Shown here: in pieces, positions 1,833 to 62,410 of the stretch | How the letters are laid out: every line of letters begins with the position of its first letter | Numbering within the stretch: the stretch's first letter is position 1 | Assembly (NCBI GenBank): GCA_019055375.1 | Contig: JAHQIW010000108.1 | Span: forward strand, 1 to 64,000 | Reading direction: 5' to 3' | Source: Parelaphostrongylus tenuis | Taxonomy: Eukaryota > Nematoda > Chromadorea > Rhabditida > Metastrongylidae | DNA: 64,000 nucleotides | The notes under the pieces: generated by a model | What the model was told of the DNA's origin: nothing | What the model saw: only the letters and a program-made list of their open reading frames with translations | Database searches by the model: none | Translations under genes and position numbers: made by a program

Positions 1833-1937
1833 AGAATAAGATTGAATTCGCATGCGCGAGCAAGTGATCTCTGGCGATTCATGGGCCGCTGGGTGAGGCA
1901 GCCATTGAGCTGACGCGATGACCGATCGATTTTCGAG
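1833..1937 (-). repeat. repeat X, mirrored part in right arm
   Basis: Exact mirror of 1362-1466 through the palindrome axis, ending at the inner boundary of the right arm. A purine-rich GAAAG tract lies just inside the spacer at about 1804-1835. Confidence 0.7.
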
Positions 1938-2186
1938 CGGTCTCATGAAATGACGGTCTTCGTTACTCAAGCAGAGATTGCTTTTTTGCCTTGAAAGAAA
2001 AACCTCAGATAAAGAGCATGACTATGTTACAAAATACGTTAAATACTCTTATTTTGAGATCAATACTGATATATCATACAACATTATGATTACTTTGATA
2101 GGGTTTAAGAGGCTAGAACGTCCTAAATGCTTTCAGCAGTGACTCTAAGACGGTTAAATACCGCGAGGTCCTCTCGAAACGTTTGT

Positions 2187-2435
2187 GTGCTCGAAAATCA
2201 ATCGATCATCTCGTCAGCCCACCCTGTCGCCTAACCTAGCGGCCCGTGAGTTGGTCAAAAACCACTGCTCGCATATGCGACTTTAATCTTATTTGCCCTA
2301 CTGCACTGCAAAGAATTGGTCTTTTCAGCGAATAAGTCCAGCGTTGTAACCACTGAAACTTCTGCTATCGAATGACTATTAACAGTCTTGAAAAAGAGCT
2401 CTGTTTCGCAAGAAATATGCGCGTGTGAAACACAA
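2187..2435 (+). repeat. repeat X, copy in right palindrome arm
   Basis: Partner of 864-1112 by symmetry and a diverged direct repeat of 1362-1607. This copy is not followed by the family-C SINE, unlike the 1362 copy. Confidence 0.7.
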
Positions 2436-3298
2436 ATGTTTTCCTGCCATCAGAGGGTTATAATGAAGATTTTTTCAAGAACCGGTTAAGTACATCGCTA
2501 GCCAAAAATTTAAGCATTCGATTGTTTATTGACTTTTCTATTGAAAGCTCCTGTCTAGTGAATGGAGTGAAGATTCTTTCGCCCTCTTATGAGCAAAAAG
2601 ATTCCAAACACTTTGTCAGCCATTTCCCTGTTCTCATTCATCTAAAATTCCACACACGACAATATTTTCTATACCCGAGAATCAAAGTTATTTCAACTAA
2701 CAAAACGGCATATCTCATTTCAAGCTCCTGCGTATTCAACAAAGAATGAAGACCTTAAGCTATCGAAGTATCCAGAAAAGTTCGTTGATTAAAAAATCAC
2801 TAGTCGATTTTGAATTCAAATCGGCCAATTACGGTAGTGAAAACGTTCTGCTTTCTTACGACTGCATGTATTTGGAGATGAAGTCCCTTTTCTAGTGTTA
2901 CAAATTCATTTATTCATTTGTATTTTCTTTCCATTATATAATAGTATTTTCTGATGGAGATTAAATCACAGACGTCAAAGAGGCCAAAAATCGGTTTTCC
3001 CCGCTCGGTTGAGAACGGCAAAATTCAACATGAGAACGTTTTCATTATATAACATATATAACATTATATATAACATTTAACCTATTAAGAGTTTATGAGA
3101 AGCAAGACAAGCTACCGTACTGATCATTGTCAGCCGAAATTATCAGAGTTCGATGAGAAAGGAACGGGTAGTTTCACTCCCCAAAACTAGTGAAAAGAAG
3201 AATGCTCTTTAAAAAATGTTGCTCAGTTATTGCATTAAGTAAAGCTTTCCCAGGTGATGTCAAGTGCAACACGATCGAATGGTGATATTTTAGTTGCG

Positions 3299-8740: not shown

Positions 8741-11231
8741 TCTCCAAGTGAAGCTTTCAGCTTGGTACGGACAAATTATGTACTTCTCCTACTGGGTAGG
8801 CTGATTACAGGAAGAAATTACGGATATCTTTATGAAGAACCAAGAGCTCTCACAGATCTAGTAACCAATCTAAAACACTGCTGCATAAATTTTTTTCTGT
8901 CAGTCCCAACTTTTTTTGTAGTATTTTATGAGACTATCACTTTGCGTGTGAATATGTGTGAGGCGCGATTTTGCGGATGAACCTAATCATAGTTTGAATA
9001 GCATATTGAGTAAGCGTTCCAAGCTGCTAACGAAGATTATTCGATTATTTTCACAAGAGATTCACTTTTTTTCTCAAGATCTTTCTTGGCTTCGTAAAGA
9101 CGGGCTTATCTTCTCGCCGTGACCGACAAGAGCGCAAGCAAACTCTAGGCACAAGCGCTTGCTGCCTATGCCACTTTCAAGATAACAAGACACCTTTTTC
9201 TAAATTAACCGCTAAAGATTTTGTTTTCCAAGGAATATGGTGAACAAGCATAGCACATTGGTTAGAGCTTCCTCGAAATACACACTGAGTCGCTTGTTGA
9301 ATCGATGTCGTTCTCGACTTACCAAACTTTTCAACTCTCCGAGATTGGCAAACCTATACCAGAGTTATCTAAGACTGTAGTATTACTAGTTCTATGCATG
9401 ATGAGGCTGCCACAAATCAATAAATTGAGTGGATATGAATTCATACCAACTTTACGAGGTTTGTAGACTCGGACACACACTCAACTCTCAGGATTGGTTG
9501 ACACTGAACGTTGTTATCTTTTGTCTTTTATTGACTAGACGTTTTTTATCTTTTAATTTGGGGTAGATCATATGAAAATCGCCTAATTCCGCACTTCTTA
9601 TATGCTGCCATCATCTGACTCCTTCGGTTGCTATGTATCATTAATAGCAGTATCAAAATCCATTACTAGATGTACATTGTACACAGCATATGATGTTTCA
9701 ACTGTCCGAGTGCATCAGCACTTTGTGCCTTGCGAATGGATGACCTGTGCGCATTTTTTGTGCTGTTTGTGTTCAGTTCTGCACTAACAGAATAAAACAC
9801 GAAATCGGAGTTCTTGTTACAGTCGTTTTTTGAAACAGCAGATTATGTCGAGATTTTACGTCAGCTAAAGGACTTAAAAAGATATTTCAAATGGCGACGG
9901 CACACTGATTTCTTGATGACGAAGTGACTGAACTGGTATTTAAGCCAATATATTTCCAGTCAACGGTTAAAGATATGAAAAAATCTAATGGTCATAGAGA
10001 GAAAACCTCCATCATCAAGACATATTAACTTATGAACGCGCTCAATATTCAACAACGCTTGACGAAGCTCATCAAATTTTCCATCTCTTCAAAGTCGGTA
10101 ACCTTATGTGAGACCAGGCTATGATGTTAGTATATTGGCACTATGCAAGAGTGGGCCGTCAAAAATCATTGCAATAAATGGGTTTTCAACCACCCATTTA
10201 ACCACCTTTACGAAGTTGGATAAAATGATTTCTAATGGATTGATTAACAGTAGGCATTCTATCAAGGATGTTGATGGAGGTACGATATTTCGAATTTTGG
10301 GCTGGAGTTTAGCCTGCGTCTCGTCTTTAACATAAGCGTGTGCCAACCATTGCACTATCGGAGCTCGTGCTCTTCTATCATTAGATTATGCAAGGTCTCG
10401 GAGTAATCAGCAATCTACAGTCAACGGAATCATATAGGAAATAGAAGGTACGTCGTCACAAGTGAGTGTATCCAGTATACGTCGTCCGCATCTCTTCATA
10501 CATTTCGCGTGCTGTTTCATCTGCTTCTTGAGAATTTTGTCTTCTTGACGTGGAATGCTGATCGAGCAAATGTTGCAGTTTCGCAGAAGAGCCAACCAGT
10601 ATTTTGTCTGCTGATAAACTACGTCATTAATTATTCTTCCATAGCTCTCAAACTATCAGTGTTCCGATGTCATAACTAAATATCTAAAACTGCTGAGTGA
10701 TGTACAAAATTTTAAACATTGTGCGAGAGCTGAACCCAGTAACCACCCGTCAACTGCCTCGCCAAACGTTTACCCTGTAGTTTGCTTTGATTAATCAGTG
10801 CTACATTGCACTGATTTCTGATATGATAAGATTCTCTCTTTCAATTCTAGAAACTGCCTCAACACAACTACACCAGCCTCGACGAATTTTGATCTGGAGA
10901 CTTGTTGCTAAAAAAAATCTGGTTTTTTTTTGTCAAAATGAAGTGATTTCTGAAGTATATTCAGTGTGAACCGGACTTCAGAAAAAGATATGTGGATATC
11001 GTTTTTTTTTTGAAAAACCTTCCAGCTTGAGCAGCCCTGCTGCACACGACACGTCAACACTTGCCATTTGCTAAGAAAGCAGTGGAAAATAAATGTCATT
11101 TAAGTACTCTTGCTTGTAGTGGGAAAACCGAAGGCTTACAGAAAACAAAACGAAGGCGAAAGATATGTTATCAGATTATATATTGTTTGAGTGACGTCTG
11201 TGAAAACAGTGTAATTAGAGGTATGATTCAT
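8741..11231. other. unrecognised spacer
   Basis: About 2.5 kb without a recognised gene. Overlapping short ORFs on both strands at 10108-10595 look no better than chance. No repeat relationships seen. Confidence 0.4.
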
Positions 11232-11425
11232 TTCATCAACCATAAGCACTAAAGTGTTGGTCACTGCAATGTCGGAGGATTCTATCACCTGTTATACGGT
11301 GATTTTGCAAATAATGCGGTGTCGATTTCTCTATATGTAAGGACTTCTTCCCTCTGCAAGGGATTGGCTGAACCAAGAGGCACCGTGCTACTGATGAGGC
11401 TGTAATACCGAAGCACGTTTTTATC
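11232..11425 (+). repeat. family-A ribozyme repeat, decayed copy
   Basis: The interior (TCAACCATAAGCACTAAAGT, the TGTCGGAGGATT block, then CTCTGCAAGGGAT) matches the interior of the element at 12826-13190. It leads into GUGCUA-CUGAUGA at 11385-11397, the stem I and core start of the family-A hammerhead. Downstream the match decays: stem II is only GG/CC and the stem I return strand is lost. Confidence 0.65.
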
Positions 11426-12825: not shown

Positions 12826-12869
12826 AGATGTTTTGAGTCCTTTATGGGGTCTGGTATGGCACTTATAAA

Positions 12870-12916
12870 GTACTAAACAAGCGCCTGTTCCACCTTTCCA
12901 AGCTCCTCAGTAGTAC
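12870..12916 (-). ncRNA. degenerate hammerhead, family A
   Basis: On the minus strand GUACUA (12916-12911) pairs with UAGUAC (12875-12870), 6 of 6, a different sequence from the GUGCUA/UAGCAC stem I of other copies but still fully paired. Core CUGAGGA fits CUGANGA. Stem II is poor and the GAAA block reads GGAAC, so this copy is probably dead. Confidence 0.5.
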
Positions 12917-13116
12917 GGTGCTTTTCCCATCAGCCGCTTCCTTGCGGGGAATACATCTCTACATATGGAGGAATCAACGAAGCACTATTATCTAATTTAT
13001 CAACCATGAACTCAAGTGTTGGACACTGCAGTGTCGGGAGATTTTATCACCAGACTTGTGGTGATTTATTACTCGGCGTCAATTCCTTTATGAGTAGGGT
13101 ATCCCCTGCAAGGACC

Positions 13117-13163
13117 GCACTACCGAAGAGCCTCGAAGGGTAAAACAGGCTCCTGTCTAGTAC
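13117..13163 (+). ncRNA. degenerate hammerhead, family A
   Basis: Stem I GCACUA/UAGUAC pairs at 5 of 6, stem II GCCU/GGGU around a CGAA loop, stem III ACAGG/CCUGU, then a GUC triplet. Core is CCGAAGA and GAAA reads AAAA, so U4 and G12 are changed. The fold is kept but catalysis is unlikely. Confidence 0.5.
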
Positions 13164-13194
13164 TTTACAAGTGCCATGAAGTAACGAAGTTAAA

Positions 13195-13270
13195 AATTGA
13201 TGTCGAATGCATGGCTCATCCCTCAGGGATTGATCAACGCCGAGAGCTTTATTTTTTATCCTTTCTGTAT
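13195..13270 (-). repeat. SINE D tail fragment
   Basis: Minus strand reads AGCTCTCGGCGTTGATCAA, GCATTCGACATC and TTTTTAACTTCGTT, the same order as 20470-20545 and the reverse complement of about 48960-49015. Confidence 0.65.
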
Positions 13271-13379: not shown

Positions 13380-13465
13380 TGGTAAGATGTCATGATATAC
13401 CCAATGATAAAGAGTAATGTGCAAAAGCACTGTCAGGTGGGATTCGAACCCACATGCTAACACTT
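13380..13465 (-). repeat. tRNA-like repeat, family C2 copy 1
   Basis: Minus strand carries a perfect B-box-like GGTTCGAATCCCACCTGAC, then TTTTGCACATTACTC and TCATTGGG. Same tail as the next two copies. Confidence 0.65.
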
Positions 13466-13482
13466 CAGAGGTGACACAGTAG

Positions 13483-13580
13483 ACTTGTATAAGCCCAATG
13501 ATGAAGAGTGATGTGCAAAGACATTTGGGTCAGCTGGGATCGAACCTACATTTTACCCTATCCGGGAGCTCGTGTTGAAA
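13483..13580 (-). repeat. tRNA-like repeat, family C2 copy 2
   Basis: Minus strand: GGTTCGATCCCAGCTGACC, then GTCTTTGCACATCACTC and TTATACAAGTCTAC. It lies head-to-head with the next copy, giving an inverted repeat centred near 13590. Confidence 0.65.
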
Positions 13581-13705
13581 AAAAGAGCGTTGGTAGAGCA
13601 ACAGTTCAGCGCGCTCCCCCGGATAGGGTGAAATGTTGGTTTGAATTCCACCTGACGCAAATGTCTTTGCACATTACTTTTTGTTTTGGGCTTGTACAAG
13701 TCTAT
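13575..13705 (+). repeat. tRNA-like repeat, family C2 copy 3
   Basis: Plus strand: TTGGTAGAGCAACAG (A-box-like), GGATAGGGTGAAA, then B-box-like GGTTTGAATTCCACC and the tail GTCTTTGCACATTAC. Pairs with copy 2 as an inverted repeat. No closed cloverleaf. Confidence 0.65.
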
Positions 13706-13718
13706 TATGTCGCTTATA

Positions 13719-13771
13719 AGTGCTAACCTGTGTTTCCGTCTTCGAGCCTCATTCAGCCTCATCAGTAGCAC
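13719..13771 (-). ncRNA. hammerhead-like remnant
   Basis: Minus strand: GUGCUA (13771-13766), CUGAUGA (13765-13759), later GAAA (13736-13733) and UAGCAC (13725-13720), which pairs 6 of 6 with GUGCUA. The middle is expanded by a GAGGCT duplication and does not form a clean stem II, so the ribozyme is probably inactive. Confidence 0.4.
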
Positions 13772-17164: not shown

Positions 17165-18739
17165 AACACGTGGCGCGATCCTCGGTGGTGGATAGAGGGA
17201 TAAACGCGAACCAAAGCGACCGTGTGCTTCCCAGAGATGCAGGTGGATTCAGGGGATGAGCTCCCTGCTTCTGCAGCGCTGACTTGACAAAACTCTATTT
17301 CTACGAGTCAAGTTGGCCAAAAGCTTGCAATCAAGCGAGCTGGGAAGTACATGGGAGGCGGTTAGGAGTCGCCTCCACAACAAGTCTCCATCTCCGAGAA
17401 GACTGGAAGTACTTGCGAGTACCCAGCCCACTTTTAGAGCCTGGGAGCTACACGTTAGGTATCAAAATACCAAAAACAGTAACAACTATGGGCCTCATTC
17501 CCCGACCCCGAAGAGCCCCTCGTACGACAGCACCAAGTAGGACGAGTACGGAGAGGCTGCTGAAATTTCAGGGCCAAACTAGACTGCCAAGATCGAAAGG
17601 GACTAAAATAACGATCTGTACCTACAATGCAAGAACCTTTGCTCACGAATACGCTGTAGAAGATCTACTGATTCGAAGCAAGAAGGATAAATTACGACGT
17701 CTTTGGCCTGGCTGAGACGAGAAGACGCCATCCTTTTCACGTTTTTTATGACACCGGAGAAGAACTGTTCCCTGGAACATGCGATAGCAGAGCTGTCGGC
17801 GGCGTTGGCGTCCTCGTCAAATCGAATTTGAAAGTGAACATCGATTTGTCTGAGCAACTAACAACCGTATCGGATGATTACGGTTGAAACGATGTGGTTC
17901 TATGGCGGCTTTGACCATCTTCGTTGCTTAACCACCAACATCAAGCTATAACGAAGACGAAGTCGAAGTGTTCTATATGGACCTCGAAAAATTCTTCAGA
18001 GAAGATCATACATTCTTCAAGGTCATTGTCGGAAATTTTAATGCAAAAACTGGACTTAAAAAAACGTCTGAAGAACGTCACATGGGACCCACGGACTAGA
18101 ATGGAATGAACAGGATGAGAGGCTATCTGAGTTTATCATGACGACTCAAACTATCCATGGAAACTCACAATTCCAAAAGCCTCACTCTCAGCTATGGACA
18201 TGGGAGTCTCCCAATGGATAGTACCACAACGAAATAGACCACGTCATAGTAGATTGAAGGTTTTGCCTGACCGACGTCGCTGTTGTTCCTAAGTTCTACA
18301 CGGGATCAAACCATCGTCTCCTTCGCGCAACGTTCTATTTTTCAAAGAGGAGAGAAAGCCGCTAAATTCAAACAACGAAGTCTCAGAACTACCATAAGCT
18401 GGGATGTATTCAAATCATTAGTCGGCTTCTGGGAAGATACAGTTGTCGACAACATCGACGAAGAATACGATCGACTCGTTGAATATCTTCACGTTAGCGC
18501 TAAAAATCCGAGAGTCCTAAGGTCACGAAGAGACGCTTGTCTCCGCAGACACTCGAGCTGATACGTCAACGTGGAATCGCACGAGCTGCAGGCAACCGAA
18601 ACCTTACGTCCGAACTTGCGAAACGATGCAGAGAAGCGATAAAAGAAGACCTCAAAGAGAGAAGAGCAGCAGTTTTGGCAGAAGCTGCAGAAGCTGGGAA
18701 GAGCATTCGCAAAGCCCAGCGAGGCTTCGCCAACCTATA
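17165..18739 (+). pseudogene. RTE LINE 5' part: leader and endonuclease, broken
   Basis: Start of the only near-full-length LINE here. GC content rises sharply at about 17165. The leader peptide (WKYLRVPSP, GSYTLGIKIP, TTMGLIPRPRR) precedes an EEP endonuclease beginning ICTYNART (catalytic Asn) and, after a frameshift, GLAETRR (catalytic Glu). Several frameshifts follow. Two conserved Asp are changed: VGDF reads VGNF, and SDHRLL reads SNHRLL at about 18305. The nuclease is therefore dead. The stretch 18537-18740 (ELAKRCREAIKEDLKERRAA) is the basic linker; one extra base near 18735 separates it from the RT ORF that follows. Confidence 0.85.
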
Positions 18740-18747
18740 AGACCAAG

Positions 18748-20445
18748 ATGATTGCACTCCGATACCCTGACGGGACACTTACAGCTTCGAGAAGGGCTAT
18801 GGAGAAAATCATCCACCAATACTACTCGGATCTCTTCGCTAGCCATGTCCTCTTACCGTCATATAAATTGAAAGAGGACGAATATGTCGTTCCACCGGTC
18901 CTCCCTTCCGAAATCCGACATGCTATATCGTCGGTGAAAAACAGAACAACACCCGGTCCAGACAGGATTAGACCAGAACACCTGAAGAACCTGCCGCCAG
19001 TTCTCATCAACACCCTGGCTCGGCTCTTCACTCGCTACCTGTCAGAATGCAAGGTCCCTATTCAATGGAAAACCAGCAAGACCGTATTGTTGTTCAAAAA
19101 GGGAGACCTTCACGACATAGGCAATTATCGCCCAATCTGCTTGCTGTCCGTTGTCTATAAACTCTTTACTCGAGTCATCCTGAACAGGATTGACAGAACA
19201 CTGGACGAAGGACAGCCATGCGAACAAGCAGGGTTCAGAAAAGGATTTAGTACCATGGACCACATCCACACGATCACAAGACTCATTGAAGTTTCGCGAG
19301 AGTACAAACAACCACTCTGTCTCACTTTTATCGATCTGAAGAAAGCCTTTGATTCAGTGGAAACAGAAGCGGTTATAGAGGCTCTGGATAACCAGGGCGT
19401 CCCTACTCGGTACATAATGATCCTTCGTGAGCTTTATAAAGATTTCACGACCAGAATATCTCCATTCTACAACAATATCACCATTGACGTAAGAAGAGGG
19501 GTTCGACAAGGCGATACAATATCGCCAAAACTATTCACTGCCACCCTACAAAACGTCATGCGAACATTAGAATGGGACGAAATGGGAGTGAAAATTGACG
19601 GTCGACAATTAAACCATCTTCGCTTTGCTGACGATATCGTTCTCATAACACCAAACATCAGCCAAGCGGAACGAATGTTGACTGATTTCGATAACGCCTG
19701 TGGAAAGATCGGTCTTCAACTGAATCTAACGAAAACAATGTTCATGAGGAACGGATGGGTTTCTAATGCCCCATTCACGCTCAACGGAACGACAATTTCC
19801 GAATGCTCCAGTTACATCTATCTAGGTCGTGAAATCAACATGATGAACGACCTAGCCCCAGAGTTGAGCAGGAGGAAACGAGCGGCTTGGGGAACGTTTA
19901 AGAGCATCGAAGATGTAGTGAAGAGGACAAAGAACATCCGACTCCGTGCCCACCTTTTCGACTCGACAATTATCCCTGCCCTAACGTATGCAGCAGAAAC
20001 CTGGTCGCTACGTAAGCAGGATGAAAGATCACTTGCAGTTATCGAACGCGCAGTCGAAAGGTCGATGCTAGGAGTATCCCGTATTTCGCAAATGAGACAA
20101 AGGATCCGAAGTTCCGACCTACGTCAACGATCGAAAATCGGAGACGCCGTTCTACACGCCAGGATATCGAAAATAAGGTGGGCCGGACACGTGATGCGCT
20201 TCAACGACAACCGATGGACGAGAGCCGTTACCGACTGGATTCCTCGGGACGTCAAGCGCTCTAAAGGAAGACCACTGACCCGTTGGTCCGATTTCTTCAC
20301 GAAAGCGATGGAAGAAAGATATGATGCTCAGCGAATCCCTAGAGCAAGGAGGACCCACTGGGCTACTCTTGCACGCGATAGGGAAAAATGGAAGAGTTGC
20401 TGGTACCCGCTCGAGTCACTCGACGATCAACGGGACGACAGGTGA
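18748..20445 (+). CDS. RTE-type LINE reverse transcriptase, 565-aa intact ORF
   Basis: RNA-templated DNA synthesis during target-primed LINE retrotransposition. RT blocks in order: LLFKKGDLHDIGNYRPICLL at about residue 110, QAGFRKGFSTMDHI (about 160), CLTFIDLKKAFDSV with the first catalytic Asp (about 190), RGVRQGDTISPKLF (about 250), LRFADDIVLI with the catalytic Asp pair (about 290), LQLNLTKTMFM and SSYIYLGREI. The C-terminal part, IRWAGHVMRFNDNRW...GRPLTRWSDFF, is typical of RTE clade proteins. It is the C-terminal portion of what should be one long ORF2. The ATG at 18748 is simply the first Met after the frameshift, so this ORF lacks its endonuclease and is not a complete protein. It stops just before the conserved 3' end GATACAGGTG (20449). 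Confidence 0.93.
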   Translation: MIALRYPDGTLTASRRAMEKIIHQYYSDLFASHVLLPSYKLKEDEYVVPPVLPSEIRHAISSVKNRTTPGPDRIRPEHLKNLPPVLINTLARLFTRYLSECKVPIQWKTSKTVLLFKKGDLHDIGNYRPICLLSVVYKLFTRVILNRIDRTLDEGQPCEQAGFRKGFSTMDHIHTITRLIEVSREYKQPLCLTFIDLKKAFDSVETEAVIEALDNQGVPTRYIMILRELYKDFTTRISPFYNNITIDVRRGVRQGDTISPKLFTATLQNVMRTLEWDEMGVKIDGRQLNHLRFADDIVLITPNISQAERMLTDFDNACGKIGLQLNLTKTMFMRNGWVSNAPFTLNGTTISECSSYIYLGREINMMNDLAPELSRRKRAAWGTFKSIEDVVKRTKNIRLRAHLFDSTIIPALTYAAETWSLRKQDERSLAVIERAVERSMLGVSRISQMRQRIRSSDLRQRSKIGDAVLHARISKIRWAGHVMRFNDNRWTRAVTDWIPRDVKRSKGRPLTRWSDFFTKAMEERYDAQRIPRARRTHWATLARDREKWKSCWYPLESLDDQRDDR

Positions 20446-20455
20446 TACAGGTGAA

Positions 20456-39849: not shown

Positions 39850-40295
39850 GAGCGTTTTTTTTAAACAACGCTCAAATTTCAACATATCTCATGATTATTA
39901 TTTGAGTCAACATATCATATGGTCTGTTTTGGGGTTCTTGTACAGCTCAATACACGCGCTTCGGCCTTGACAACCTCGTCAGTCGATCAGGCCTTTGGTC
40001 ATTAGCCAATCCTCTCGGGGCGCTCCGGTGTAATATTTTAAATATACCAGCCAAGAACAATCGAGTGTACAACACTCTTATCTAGTGATTTATTTCACTT
40101 GATGACGGCACGTGTAAATCGTGAGTCGTCACCTACTCTAAGTCTCTAAGTAAGGAGACGGGGGCTGAAAAGTCCCGAGAGGACTGGCTGAAGACTAAAG
40201 GCCTGCCCGACCGAGGAGGCTGTCAAGGCTTGTACAAGAGCCCATAACAGATCACATGACATGTTGGCTCAAATAATAAATATAAGATAAGACAT
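39850..40295. repeat. family-B ribozyme element, inverted dimer
   Basis: The left arm (39850-40055) reads minus and the right arm (40060-40295) reads plus. Both contain GAGGxTTGGCT..., the ribozyme region, TGTACAAGxxCCC and TTGxCTCAAATAATAA. The ends converge on AATTTGAGCGTTGTTT-like sequence near 39870. The right-arm ribozyme (about 40191-40235) has core CCGAGGA and has lost the GAAA box. The two units point outward. Confidence 0.75.
39945..39988 (-). ncRNA. hammerhead-like ribozyme, family B copy 2
   Basis: Minus strand: stem I GAUCGA (39988-39983) with UUGAGC (39950-39945), 5 of 6 including a G-U. Core CUGACGA (39982-39976) is intact. Stem II GGUU/GGCC closes a GUCAA loop. GAAG replaces GAAA (only A15.1 changed, a G-U pair with U16.1). 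Stem III GC/GU, predicted cleavage after A39951. The least damaged family-B ribozyme here. Confidence 0.6.
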
Positions 40296-41010: not shown

Positions 41011-41800
41011 CTCTCCCCCTCCCCCCCCATGACCACCTCTTTTCACAAATCTCAACAACTTTCTACTCAAAGAAAGCTCTGGGAACCAAGTCCATGCCTG
41101 AACTACCCCTAACGACTTCATCGTCTCCAGGATTTCGCAGTCCAGTCAATTTTATATAAGTAGGCTTATTTTACGTTCGCAAAAAAGTGTAAGTTTTGAA
41201 GGTTCCCACTTTGTAAACCTAAATTTTTTTTTATTTACAAGGGGCATCATCGTATATACTGCGTGAATCCCAGCACTTTATTGCTTTATTCGCATTCATT
41301 CTCAACAAAGATTTTTGAATACTTCATGTGTTGTCTGAGCTTCTGCTTATAGATTCGCCTTCTTATTGAATGTGGTAGTATGCTGGTCCAGACAATTGTC
41401 CTCGTGATTTCTAGATACTATCAAGTCAAGGGACTCCCATGTGATTACAAGAACACTTTATGGAGGGATTTGACAACAAGCCTACTTCATGGTAGCCTGC
41501 ACACTAACCACTCCTATCTTCCTTTTTTATTTCGCTCAGTAAAGTTCGTTCGCGGCTAAGATACACAATACTAAAACTGCAAGTTAAACAAGCCTATATT
41601 TTCCAAGCAACCTAGTAAATAAATGAAAATTTGTTGATGAGAAAGACCATAGTGCAAACGATATTTAATCGACATAGATGGCTCTAATTGACGAGATCTC
41701 ATTTATCGAGTTTCTTGGGAGCTCGATAGGCATAGAAGACTACATTAAGTATAAACAGTGCAGAAAAGTCTTAGTGATGCCTCTTAGGAAGCTACCTATT
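41011..41800. other. unrecognised spacer
   Basis: No gene or family recognised. Confidence 0.4.
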
Positions 41801-43172
41801 CACCTGACACCTCTCGTCTTGTTGATCATTAAGTTACTCGAGCGGAAGCCAGTAAGAATTCCATTTCTCCCTATCACATGCAAGAACAGCCCAGTGGGTT
41901 CTCCTCGCTCTAGAAATCCGACGAGCATTATAATGTTCTTGTAGGTTTTTTCGCGGGGAAATCGGACCGTCGGGTCCGTGGTATTCCTATGAACTTGACA
42001 TCGCGAAAAATCCAGTCAGTAACTGCTCTCGTTCATCAGTTATCATTAGAGCTCATTTTTCGCTCCACCTCGACAGCCTGGCGTGTAGAAGGACATCTTT
42101 TATCCTCAATCGTTGACACAAGTCGGGACGTAGGATTTTTCCTCTCATTAACGAGATACGCGGTACTCTTAACAACGATATTTCAACCGCGCATTCGATA
42201 ACGCCTTGTGATCTTCCATCCAGTTTTGACCATTTTTGGAGGCATATTCTTAGTCAAGAATAAGTTGTGTCGAAAAGTTGGCATGGAATAGGGTGTTCTT
42301 CGTTCTCTTCACCAAATCTTCGATGTTTTTAATCGCTCCTGTAGCCGTTCAACTCTGGAACTAGCTCATTCATCATATTGCCATCTCGATTTAGATTGAC
42401 ATACTTGATCATTTGGGAATATTCATTCTGTTAAGCATGACGTAGCATCCAAAATTAAGCTGTTCCTCTTGAAGATCGTTTTCATTAAATTTCGTCGGCT
42501 ACCAATATTTCCATCGGCGTTGTGTAAAATCGTTAACGTTCGTTTCGCCTGGCTAATGATTGATGATCCAGCGATGTCATGAACGCATGAACGAAGCGAA
42601 GGTGGTTTTAATTGTCGACCGCCCATTTTCATTCCCATTTTAACGTTCACATGATGTTTTCGAGAGAACAGTGAATTCTAACAACATGGTTTCGCCTTAT
42701 CGTACCCCTCACATTCCGTCGATAATAATGTCGTCACAGAATGGTTTTGGTTGTGAACTCCACAGAAAACTTACAGAGAATTGTTACCTACTGAGTAGAA
42801 ATGTAGCTGTCCAGAGCTTTCATGACTGATTCTGCTTCAACTGATTCAAAGACCTTCAAATCGATGAAACTTAGACAGATCGATTTCGTATATTTTGTAT
42901 GATTTCAGTGAGTCTTGTTATCGTAGTGGATGTGGTTTACGCATCTAAATTTCTCTCGAAATCCTGCTTGTTCACAATGCTGCCCTTCGTCCAATGTTCC
43001 ATCAATCCTGTTCAAGCTACTCCAGTGAAAAGATAATAAGCGACTGACATGAAACGCATTGGTAGGTAGTTGCCGATATTATGATGCCTCTGCTATCAAC
43101 CGCTTTTTTACAGATCCGCTCAAAACGAAATAATCTGATAAGGATGTGACTTGTTTTGAGCCGATAGGTCTA

Positions 43173-43220
43173 GTGCCATATAGGCGCCTATTTCGTCCTA
43201 CTGGGACTCATCAATAGCAG
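43173..43220 (-). ncRNA. hammerhead, left arm, one core change
   Basis: Minus strand: stem I UGCUA (43219-43215) with UGGCA (43078+100 numbering: 43178-43174), core UUGAUGA (43214-43208), stem II GUCC... arms 43207-43204 and 43198-43195 around TACTG-complement, GAAA (43194-43191), stem III AUAG/CUAU with GCGC loop. The only core difference from 43362-43409 is C3 to U, expected to impair cleavage. Confidence 0.7.
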
Positions 43221-43361
43221 CCATGCCGCAAGCTCGACTGCCGGTCACCACAACGTCAAGTAATACCATCATCCGACATGCGGTGATTTTTTATCAGGCG
43301 TCAATTCTTTGAGAGGATTATTTAGCCTCAAGAGATCGACGGAACCGAGGGGAGGAGGGGG

Positions 43362-43409
43362 GTGCTACTGATGAGTCCCAACAGGACGAAATAGGCGCCT
43401 ATATAGCAC
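43362..43409 (+). ncRNA. complete minimal type I hammerhead ribozyme
   Basis: Stem I: GUGCUA (43362-43367) with UAGCAC (43404-43409), 6 of 6. Core CUGAUGA 43368-43374. Stem II: GUCC (43375-43378) with GGAC (43384-43387), loop CAACA. GAAA 43388-43391. Stem III: AUAG (43391-43394) with CUAU (43399-43402), loop GCGC; the A15.1-U16.1 pair is present. H17 is A43403, so self-cleavage is predicted after it (AUA triplet). All conserved core nucleotides of the hammerhead are present. The stem III sequence ATAGGCGCCTAT is a perfect palindrome, so a dimeric fold is possible, as known for short-stem-III hammerheads in Penelope elements and retrozymes. Confidence 0.9.
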
Positions 43410-44089
43410 TAGACCTATCGGCTCAAAACAAGTCATATCCTTATCAGATACTGTGATAATCTTTCTTTCTGAACAATAGAGCAATCTTTCTACCTCCTAC
43501 TGAATCGGATTCTTGCAGTCTGACAGGTAACTGAACTGATGGAAATTGGCGGGGATATCCTGGTGTTTCTATAAACTCTTGTCTGGACCAATACGTGTTG
43601 TTGTATTTTTCACCGGTGAAAAAGCGTGCCTGATTTTGCAATAACTAACTGGTGGAAAGAGAAATTCGTTTTCTGTCATTTCATATGACGGTAAGAAGAC
43701 GTCACTATTGAAGAATCCGAGGAGCATTCGTAACGAATTTTTTCCTTACCTTTCTGGAATCTGTGATTGTTCAGTCAGTGCGGGAATATAATCATCTTGG
43801 TCCTGTACTAGCGAAGCTTTGGTGGGCCTTGCAAACTTTTTTCTCCGGCTTCTGCAATTTCAGCCACAACTGCCACTCTTCTCTTCATAAGATCTTCCTT
43901 TTTCGCTTTTCTATAGCGTTTGCAAGTTCCAGCCGCCTATAAATTTGAAGCTCATCTGACTTTTTGACTTAGTGGTTTTTGAAACTATTGTTTATTTTGT
44001 GACTTTCTTTGGTTTAGCAAACACGAGATTGTTAATGTAAGTTTATTTTGTGCAAAATAGTAGAATAGAGATCGTATCGGTAGCTAACG

Positions 44090-44692: not shown

Positions 44693-44854
44693 CCACCACC
44701 GATACGATCTCTGTTGTACTATTTTGTATAAGATAAACAAGTATTAACAACCTCATGTTTACTGAACCAAGGTTAATCATGAAATAATTAATCAATGCCA
44801 AGGTTTATCGATAGTCGGTCTTGAGGATTGTTTTTTATCACATCTAATGCGTTA

Positions 44855-45035
44855 AGGATATGACATGTTTTGAGTCGTTAGGTCTAGTGCTAAACAAGCG
44901 TCTGTTTCGTCCTATTAGAACTCATCAGCAGCACCCCTTCTCGGTTTAGCTGATCTCCTAAGGCTAAATAATCTTGTGTAGAAGAATCAACGCCTGAGTA
45001 ATAAATCACTCCAAGTCAGATGATGGAATTACCCC
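44855..45035 (-). repeat. family-A element, 5'-truncated
   Basis: Minus strand: interior CCATCATCTGACTTGG and TTATTACTCAGGCGTTGATTC leads to a ribozyme and a terminal block ending in GACTCAAAACATGTCATATCC at about 44857. Same polarity (interior, ribozyme, end) as the 43132 element. No inverted second arm. Confidence 0.8.
44887..44934 (-). ncRNA. second complete minimal type I hammerhead ribozyme
   Basis: Minus strand: stem I GUGCUG (44934-44929) with UAGCAC (44892-44887), 6 of 6 with one G-U. Core CUGAUGA 44928-44922. Stem II GUUC/GGAC (one U-G) around UAAUA. GAAA 44908-44905. Stem III ACAG/UUGU around ACGC, with A15.1-U16.1 present. H17 is U44893, so cleavage is predicted after it (GUU triplet). 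The 48-nt length equals that of 43362-43409. Stem III and the stem II loop differ in sequence between the copies while the fold is kept. Confidence 0.88.
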
Positions 45036-55934: not shown

Positions 55935-56215
55935 TCTTTTCTCACCATGTCTCATAATTATTATTTGAATCAACATGTCATGCCGCCTGTAATGGGCTCT
56001 CTTACAGCCACATACACGTGTTTCGCCCTTGAGCAGCCACGCCAGTCGGGCAGAGCTCTCTGTTTTTGGGCAAACTCCGAGTGTTCCAGCTTCCCATACT
56101 GAGAGTAGGCGACGACGAACGATTTAGACAATTGCGTCAAGCGAAAAATCACTAGTTCGGCAGTTTGTTACACTCGATTGTTCGTGGCTGTTATTTTGAA
56201 ATAATTGCACCATTC
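55935..56215 (-). repeat. family-B ribozyme element, near-complete unit
   Basis: Minus strand: CGAACAATCGAGTGTAACA, CGTTCGTCGTCGCCTACTCT, the ribozyme, AGAGAGCCCATTACAG, CATGACATGTTGATTCAAAT, then AATAATTATGAGACATGG. A second family-B outer end (56216-56300, CATATCTCATGACTATTATT) adjoins it. Confidence 0.75.
56007..56051 (-). ncRNA. degenerate hammerhead, family B copy 4
   Basis: Minus strand: stem I 5' GCCCGA, core CUGGCGU (A6 and A9 changed), stem II GGCU/GGGC at 3 of 4, GAAA intact, stem III CACGUG and GUA cleavage triplet intact. Stem I pairs at 4 of 6. Catalysis unlikely. Confidence 0.45.
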
Positions 56216-56456
56216 GTTTCGAGTGTTTTCGTGAGTCCATGTCCACATCTCAGCATATCTCATGACTATTATTTGAGCCAACATGTCAGTTGGTCTATCA
56301 ATGAGTTCGCTAAAGCCCGATACATCTTTTTTTTTAGTCCATGTTTTTGTATTATTCGATAGCTTGAGAGACGCCGCTTGGATACTAAGCTTGACTTGTA
56401 AACGACCTTCAATACTACGTTCTACTGACGGAAAAAGGTTATATTCTGCCCTCGAT

Positions 56457-61329: not shown

Positions 61330-61905
61330 TTTCGAGTGCTTCTTGGGACAACGCTCAAATTCCGATATGACTGATACTTACTTTTGAGCCATGATTGTTT
61401 TCTGTTATGGGCACTTATACAATCCAATACACGTGTTCCAGTACTGATTCGTTCCCTTGCATACATCCTCCACAAAATCCTCGAGCATTCCTTCGACTGC
61501 TGCTTGCCTTGCAGCCTTGCAGCCTTGCACAGTGCTTTTTGTTCAGTCAGTTCTTTGCCCGATCTACCCTTTATATAAAGGAGTCACGGCGAACGTTTTA
61601 CACGCGCCGATAATATCTATCAGGTATGTTAAGATTTGAGCGTGGTCTTAAGAAGCACTCGAAACTAAACGTTTATCAACTATGAGCAGTTGAGTGCACG
61701 ACCACTGCCCCTTTGTGGTTTTATCACTTATCGGCGGTGTAAAACGTTCGAAGTCGACTCCTCTATGTAAGGGGTAGATCCGCCATCAACTGACTGAACG
61801 AAAAGGTACCGTTAAAGTGGTGAAGCTTCAAGGCCGAAACATGAGTATTGCACTGTATAAGTGCCCATAACGGACTACAAGCATGGCTCAAAATAAAGCT
61901 ATCAG
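61330..61905. repeat. family-B ribozyme element, inverted dimer, decayed
   Basis: Left outer end TTTCGAGTGCTTCTTGGGAC and right end GAGTATTGCACTGTATAAGTGCCCATAAC...GGCTCAAAATAA. Inner inverted arms 61545-61612 and 61728-61800 share CAGTCAGTT, GATCTACCC and GTTTTACAC. Ribozyme remnants: right arm GGCCGAAACATGAGTA; left arm GGAACACGTGTATTG on minus. Both cores are lost. Confidence 0.6.
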
Positions 61906-61949: not shown

Positions 61950-62410
61950 GTGGATTCTTTCAATCACCTCAAGTGATGCTTTAAAAAGTCGAATGCATTG
62001 CGCATCCTTCAAAGTTTTATCGACGTAGAGAGTTCCATCTCTTCTCACCTTTAGTGATTGCATGTACCATAATTTTCCACAATAACTCAAAAGTCGAACT
62101 ATCTCTAAACCTCGGTATGATTAAAGAAGTGCAAATTCTCTCACGAAGTGTCCTTTTCTTTATGAAAAAACACTAGCCTCGTGCAAGTTCCAAATAAAGA
62201 AGAAGACAGTAAGTAAGAAATTTTGCACTTCTTTAATCATACCGAGGTTTAGAGATAGTTCGACTTTTGAGTTATTGTGGAAAATTATGGTACATGCAAG
62301 CACTTAAAGATGAGAAGAGATAAAGATCTCTACGTCGATCAAACTTTGAAGGATGCGCAGTGTATTCGACTTTTTAGAGCATCACTTGAGGTGATTGAAA
62401 GAATATAGAT
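61950..62410. repeat. SINE D inverted pair
   Basis: Arms 61950-62138 and 62217-62407 are reverse complements, strongest at TTTCAATCACCTCAAGTGAT and GAACTATCTCTAAACCTCGG with their partners. The outer parts are the family D tail (GGATGCGCA, ATTCGACTTT, GAGGTGATTGAA). The loop is about 78 bp. Confidence 0.8.

Follow-up and report, generated by a model that had tools for sequence, protein, structure and literature searches.

In a window of 64,000 nucleotides, the whole stretch of Parelaphostrongylus tenuis DNA analysed here, we find a hammerhead ribozyme (HHR) motif that is probably natural, of type I, and part of an old mobile element of this strongylid nematode: a multi-copy, non-coding repeat, retrozyme-like and of an unusual inverted form (probability about 0.68). 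Dispersed and diverged copies with co-varying stems, the position of one copy inside a LINE copy and the repeated head-to-head pairing of units point to this reading at the level of sequence.

The motif at 43362-43409 on the forward strand (+), here termed c1R, is confirmed as a complete type I hammerhead, for which self-cleavage is predicted. Type I HHRs combine an invariant core (CUGANGA, GAA, A15.1-U16.1 and H17) with three stems, and are open at stem I. In c1R, stem I (GTGCTA/TAGCAC, 43362-43367/43404-43409) is followed by the core CTGATGA (43368-43374), stem II (GTCC/GGAC), GAA (43388-43390) with A15.1 at 43391, and a stem III hairpin that ends at T16.1 (43402). A17 lies at 43403, and cleavage is predicted after this nucleotide. 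The same core and three stems, open at stem I, occur in a second copy, c2, whose HHR spans 44887-44934 on the reverse strand (-). The cleavage triplet is AUA in c1R and GUU in c2 (predicted cut after U44893); both are allowed for HHRs and neither is among the fastest. The stem III 12-mer of c1R, ATAGGCGCCTAT, is a perfect palindrome, self-complementary at 12 of 12 positions. The earlier note had claimed both this palindrome and the presence of every core position and all three stems, and it was right on each, down to the letters and coordinates. Visual inspection and constrained folding of c1R were used to look for a longer stem I with an internal loop, and no pairing kept in c2 was seen.

Rfam family RF00163 (Hammerhead_1) aligns along the full length of c1R at 28.2 bits with zero non-standard pairs marked (E 0.0092, whole window against all Rfam families), and scores c2 at 28.9 bits (E 0.0055, window-wide scan). 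Both scores are under the gathering score of 34, and a scan of the window at gathering thresholds returned 0 matches. A strict descriptor (CTGATGA, stem II, GAAA, stem III with A15.1-U16.1, H17, and a stem I with 5 or more pairs) matches the window at 2 sites, 43368 (+) and 44928 (-), and had 0 matches in 300 dinucleotide shuffles searched on both strands. The sub-gathering scores would fit a chance look-alike in an unrelated repeat, but the descriptor counts, and above all the co-varying stems in diverged copies described below, make such an origin extremely improbable.

c1R lies in an inverted repeat, with arms at 43133-43222 and 43360-43449 that are 137 nt apart (repeat search) and complementary at 84 of 90 nt. 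The right arm consists of the HHR and a ~40-nt tail. Likeness between the arms starts 2 nt outside the HHR and takes in the tail, and the left arm is almost perfectly antisense to the c1R HHR. Read on the opposite strand, the left arm holds a second hammerhead, c1L (43173-43220, -), in which C3 is replaced by U (core TTGATGA). Because C3 is the partner of G8 in the active fold, this change is expected to disable the ribozyme, and from its sequence c1L is probably inactive. It scores 16.8 bits against Rfam (E 0.45 in a 561-base search) and is absent from the window-wide Rfam scan at E up to 1. The centre of the element (43223-43359) aligns with other copies, 43233-43310 with the right unit of c3 and 43260-43359 with c2. 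The opposite-strand hammerhead, the predicted antisense masking and the further copies in the window do not appear in the earlier note. Its figure of 310 bp comes close to the 317 bp of the inverted repeat (43133-43449), whereas the inserted DNA, judged against one uninterrupted LINE copy, is ~366 bp. The element is indeed non-coding, as had been claimed: no ORF of at least 120 aa and no stop-free stretch of at least 70 codons overlaps the c1 insert. A translated protein search over the element gave no protein match, and a tRNA scan of the window (ARAGORN) found none.

The left arm has a large predicted effect on folding. Under constrained folding, the HHR fold costs 0.1 kcal/mol for the 48 nt of c1R alone, 2.9 kcal/mol in the unit, 4.3 with the whole loop and 59.1 with the left arm; for the single unit of c2 the cost is 4.4 kcal/mol. 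The full c1 fold-back forms a hairpin of -190.6 kcal/mol (MFE z -21.4 against 100 shuffles). The c3 locus also folds far better than its shuffles (z -10.9), and for a c2 stretch of slightly greater length the fold is no better than in shuffles (z -0.69). Given the high cost with the left arm and the low cost without it, any activity of the ribozyme is to be expected on transcripts that lack this arm. In these models c1R should be able to cut when transcribed without it, as in c2-like single units, and would be largely locked in the full-length hairpin, which should hide the HHR, although folding during transcription could change the outcome. Quite unlikely, in our estimation, is a distinct class of ribozyme fold-back elements, in which a transcript of either strand would end in a sense HHR and the antisense arm would serve as a built-in lock. 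If such a class exists, cutting would be confined to transcripts that start inside the loop or to the time before the hairpin closes, and full transcripts would give rise to double-stranded RNA. This would represent a ribozyme element switched by its own mirror copy, in an endogenous nematode hammerhead family. A fold-back family would allow tests of how an RNA-cutting motif competes with its own antisense within one transcript, and of whether the hairpin is a substrate of small-RNA pathways in nematodes.

Two copies of the c1R 12-mer pair at -19.7 kcal/mol, and a single copy gives no stable hairpin, so dimers are possible; the 12-mer of c2 self-pairs at -4.7 kcal/mol only. Self-complementarity of stem III is 12/12 in c1R, c1L and the left unit of c3 (c3L), and 10/12 in c2 and the right unit of c3 (c3R), and four intramolecular stem III pairs are kept in all five. 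It is possible from these energies that c1R acts as a dimer, and monomer and dimer modes are equally served by the data. Neither the repeat search nor the covariance model found a tandem sense HHR at the c1 locus, the second HHR being on the other strand.

Eight loci in the window were assigned to the family (c1 to c8), with c5, c6, c7 and c8 on weaker evidence than c1 to c4. The unit, of ~200 nt, comprises, in this order, a spacer, the HHR and a tail of ~40-50 nt. The c2 unit (44835-45032, -), found by blastn as an inverted copy of the c1 element, is 76% identical to c1R over 205 columns; its HHR is intact and carries a compensatory U-A to C-G change in stem III relative to c1. The c3 fold-back (12856-13177) contains two HHR relics, head to head (12870-12916, -, and 13117-13163, +). 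At c4 (11222-11412, +) the loop and the HHR start are present (CTGATGA, 11391-11397), and the rest of the HHR is lost. The HHR-like relic c5 (13720-13771, -) keeps stem I and CTGATGA, and the model leaves its stems II and III unaligned. Two further fold-backs are c6 (61371-61905), with a decayed HHR-side arm (~61811-61855, +), and c7 (39885-40289), with an HHR relic in its left arm (39945-39988, -). A relative of c7, c8 (55942-56324), has a decayed HHR (56007-56051, -) and a partial same-orientation repeat.

These assignments draw on several searches. A covariance model was trained on c1R, c1L and c2, so that these three match it necessarily, and it gave nine rows in all. Among them are three further matches at E<1e-4 (12916-12870, -; 13117-13163, +; 13771-13720, -) and three weaker ones (one at 11385, +, with E 0.023, and two partial ones within c1 with E 1.6). 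A sequence profile of c1R and c2 recovers c3R (13034-13165, +; E 2.4e-10), c3L (12979-12811, -; E 3.1e-8) and c4 (11278-11400, +; E 5.3e-8). A second profile, from six units, adds c6 (61719-61895, +; E 1.1e-6) and the left unit of c7 (40015-39917, -; E 6e-4), with weak matches to c5 (13774-13752, -; 0.0098) and the right unit of c7 (40173-40272, +; 0.07). Pairwise scores chain the copies (for example, c6R-c4 z 9.9, c6R-c7R 12.8, c7L-c3L 11.3), against a maximum of 1.9 for 40 random pieces; c1R itself is not close to c6R (z 2.2), c7R (1.3) or c8a (0.7). Judged by its sequences, the family seems old and largely decayed; two of its members in the window are intact. Tail patterns of the element had no match in viral or genome contig collections, and a search of phage records yielded three short matches, with E 4. 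Beside c5, which lies at its edge, 13451-13732 is a palindrome (73% over 292 columns), and near 13650 it shows tRNA-like letters by eye, with the box-B-like stretch GGTTTGAATTCC, where ARAGORN finds no tRNA. This region is possibly a tRNA-derived SINE joined to an HHR tail.

Across the six HHRs aligned by the covariance model, 97.4% of 76 cells are paired, in an alignment that is fitted to the structure and leans to it, and in which the c5 row has gaps at stems II and III. In slid controls the paired share is 24-47%. Four of the 14 pairs are changed on both sides (7 cells), and these are spread over all three stems. Paired percentage, cell count and covariation score were reached by 0/500 shuffles; the shuffled range does include the number of double-change pairs (56/500) and that of pair types (482/500). 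With three sequences, no measure goes beyond the shuffles (161/500 or more). The stems appear to have been kept by compensatory change, which suggests selection on the fold, as far as an alignment fitted to the structure can indicate. Stem III was misplaced in a seven-row alignment that included c7L and c8; this alignment was excluded from the counts, and its rows were split by hand instead. Cores are intact in two of the seven hand-split arms (c1R and c2) and broken in c1L, c3L, c3R, c7L and c8. Stem pairing is complete in c1R, c2 and c3L, with one mismatch each in c1L, c3R and c7L, and three in c8.

The c1 element interrupts a degenerate LINE copy (41799-43929, -; 69-71% identity) whose longest stop-free stretch on its own strand is 84 codons. 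With ends placed by eye against one reference copy (18612-20455), the inserted DNA extends from 43087 to 43452. Its GC content is 47%, compared to 40% for the c2 unit and 39.8% for the window; the value for the P. tenuis assembly is 40.07% (PMC10940269). The insert is flanked by ATGATG (43081-43086) and GTGATA (43453-43458), which are identical at 4 of 6 positions, with boundaries set by eye, and may be a weak, imperfect 6-bp target duplication. Between the LINE and the left arm lie 46 nt (43087-43132), in which a 13-nt piece (43114-43126) is once more inverted relative to part of the left-arm tail; this resembles what two reversals of the copying enzyme would leave. A 565-aa ORF at 18748-20442 has an RVT_1 domain (Pfam), and we take the LINE to be RTE-like from its layout and from the endonuclease and RT domains in relatives of this ORF. 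Among the best 120 of its 2,969 relatives, the top-listed protein is 87% identical at full length, and four are P. tenuis proteins with 99, 98, 96 and 89% identity (covering 70, 61, 54 and 61% of the query, respectively); hookworm, Haemonchus and Angiostrongylus proteins in this set are less alike than those of P. tenuis.

Head-to-head fold-backs, all imperfect palindromes, occur at four of the eight assigned loci (c1, c3, c6 and c7). The arms of c3 match at z 13.9, and the units of c3, c6 and c7 point outward; inverted partners of c2 and c4 were sought and none was found. A palindrome scan of the window lists 21 imperfect rows, some nested. Five of these are at c1, c3, c6 and c7; the other 16 are outside the loci in which HHR arms were found, two abutting c5 and the remainder being other repeats. 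With so many non-HHR palindromes, fold-backs may be a general habit of this genome, which seems rich in many kinds, and the shape may be unrelated to the ribozyme. Could the fold-back be a MITE-like DNA element, moved by a transposase, with the HHR arms as long terminal inverted repeats and the ribozyme as a passenger? The palindromes at half of the assigned loci and the many others in the window would fit. However, the insert runs ~46 nt past the left arm and ~3 nt past the right (by eye), and at least one arm is therefore not terminal, which counts against simple terminal repeats. The failure to find a second arm at c2 and the imperfect possible target duplication also argue against this origin, and we consider it unlikely.

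Several other features of the window bear noting. LINE 3' UTR fragments are located just to the right of c3 (13183-13265) and c6 (61959-62032) in a like relative orientation, possibly reflecting a shared insertion preference or a composite element. The region 61958-62400 is a fold-back (447 columns at 88%) with LINE 3' UTR pieces in both orientations, and within it 62109-62248 has a below-threshold Rfam match to MIR2646. The most alike pair in the repeat listing is an inverted repeat of ~1.47 kb (1-1466 versus 1833-3298, 99.2% identity), which may have come from a recent duplication or from an error of assembly.

The lead offered by the earlier note was that the copies are remnants of Penelope-like pseudo-LTRs with minimal type I HHRs that work as dimers. 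The link that it made between the hammerhead and a mobile non-coding element holds. Type I HHRs with a weak, palindromic stem III occur here, and such HHRs are described from Penelope pseudo-LTRs in PMC7761336 (section 8); c8, moreover, has a partial same-orientation repeat. However, a Pfam scan of 30 ORFs and open stretches, from a window with 150 open stretches of at least 70 codons (most short ones falling outside the scan), revealed no Penelope protein with its linked RT and GIY-YIG, the sole match being RVT_1 in the RTE-like LINE ORF. The arrangement is inverted rather than tandem, with no tandem sense copy at the locus, and the four stem III pairs of c1, c2 and c3 exceed those of the minimal kind described in PMC7761336. 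A Penelope origin is thus very unlikely. For the retrozyme-like mobile repeat that we favour, we propose that the HHR released or processed the unit RNA, as in retrozymes, and that a LINE reverse transcriptase, with the RTE-like one as the only candidate seen, copied this RNA into DNA. The fold-backs would have arisen by template switching or inversion during such copying.

So, how does this family compare with known ribozyme-bearing repeats? We recognised no report of an endogenous nematode hammerhead in the main texts searched, a scope outside which the key surveys PMC4209133, PMC2941103 and PMC5785218 lie, and the string "nematod" is absent from the main texts of PMC7229834, PMC3088659, PMC7761336, PMC4918200, PMC6155905, PMC11167929 and PMC6431247. 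The metazoan non-LTR retrozymes, as characterized in PMC7229834, share with c1 a type I HHR in a small non-coding repeat of a few hundred bp, a GC content <50%, the lack of LTR or ORF, and probable movement by the reverse transcriptase of another element. The unit of ~200 nt and the insert of ~366 bp both agree with a short (150-450 bp) non-coding repeat with a type I HHR. In contrast, those retrozymes are tandem direct repeats in that paper, whereas the units here are single or head-to-head inverted: c1 is inverted only, c2 is single, and a partial same-orientation repeat occurs only at c8. As the tandem arrangement is absent at c1, we do not file c1 as a metazoan retrozyme.

The SINE-like HHR repeats of schistosomes, to judge from sections of PMC4918200 and PMC11620745, are likewise HHR repeats of a parasitic worm, but one that is a flatworm, and they contain a full tRNA sequence; here the host is a nematode and the HHR resides in inverted arms. 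Penelope-like elements with minimal hammerheads, as outlined in extracts of PMC7761336 and PMC11167929, have a type I HHR with a weak stem III, as here, but stem III is longer in c1, c2 and c3, and c1 lacks a tandem pseudo-LTR. In animals, hammerheads have been described in tandem repeats, in SINE-like repeats and in Penelope elements, and a dispersed strongylid nematode family in which the ribozyme lies repeatedly in inverted arms would widen the known locations of HHRs.
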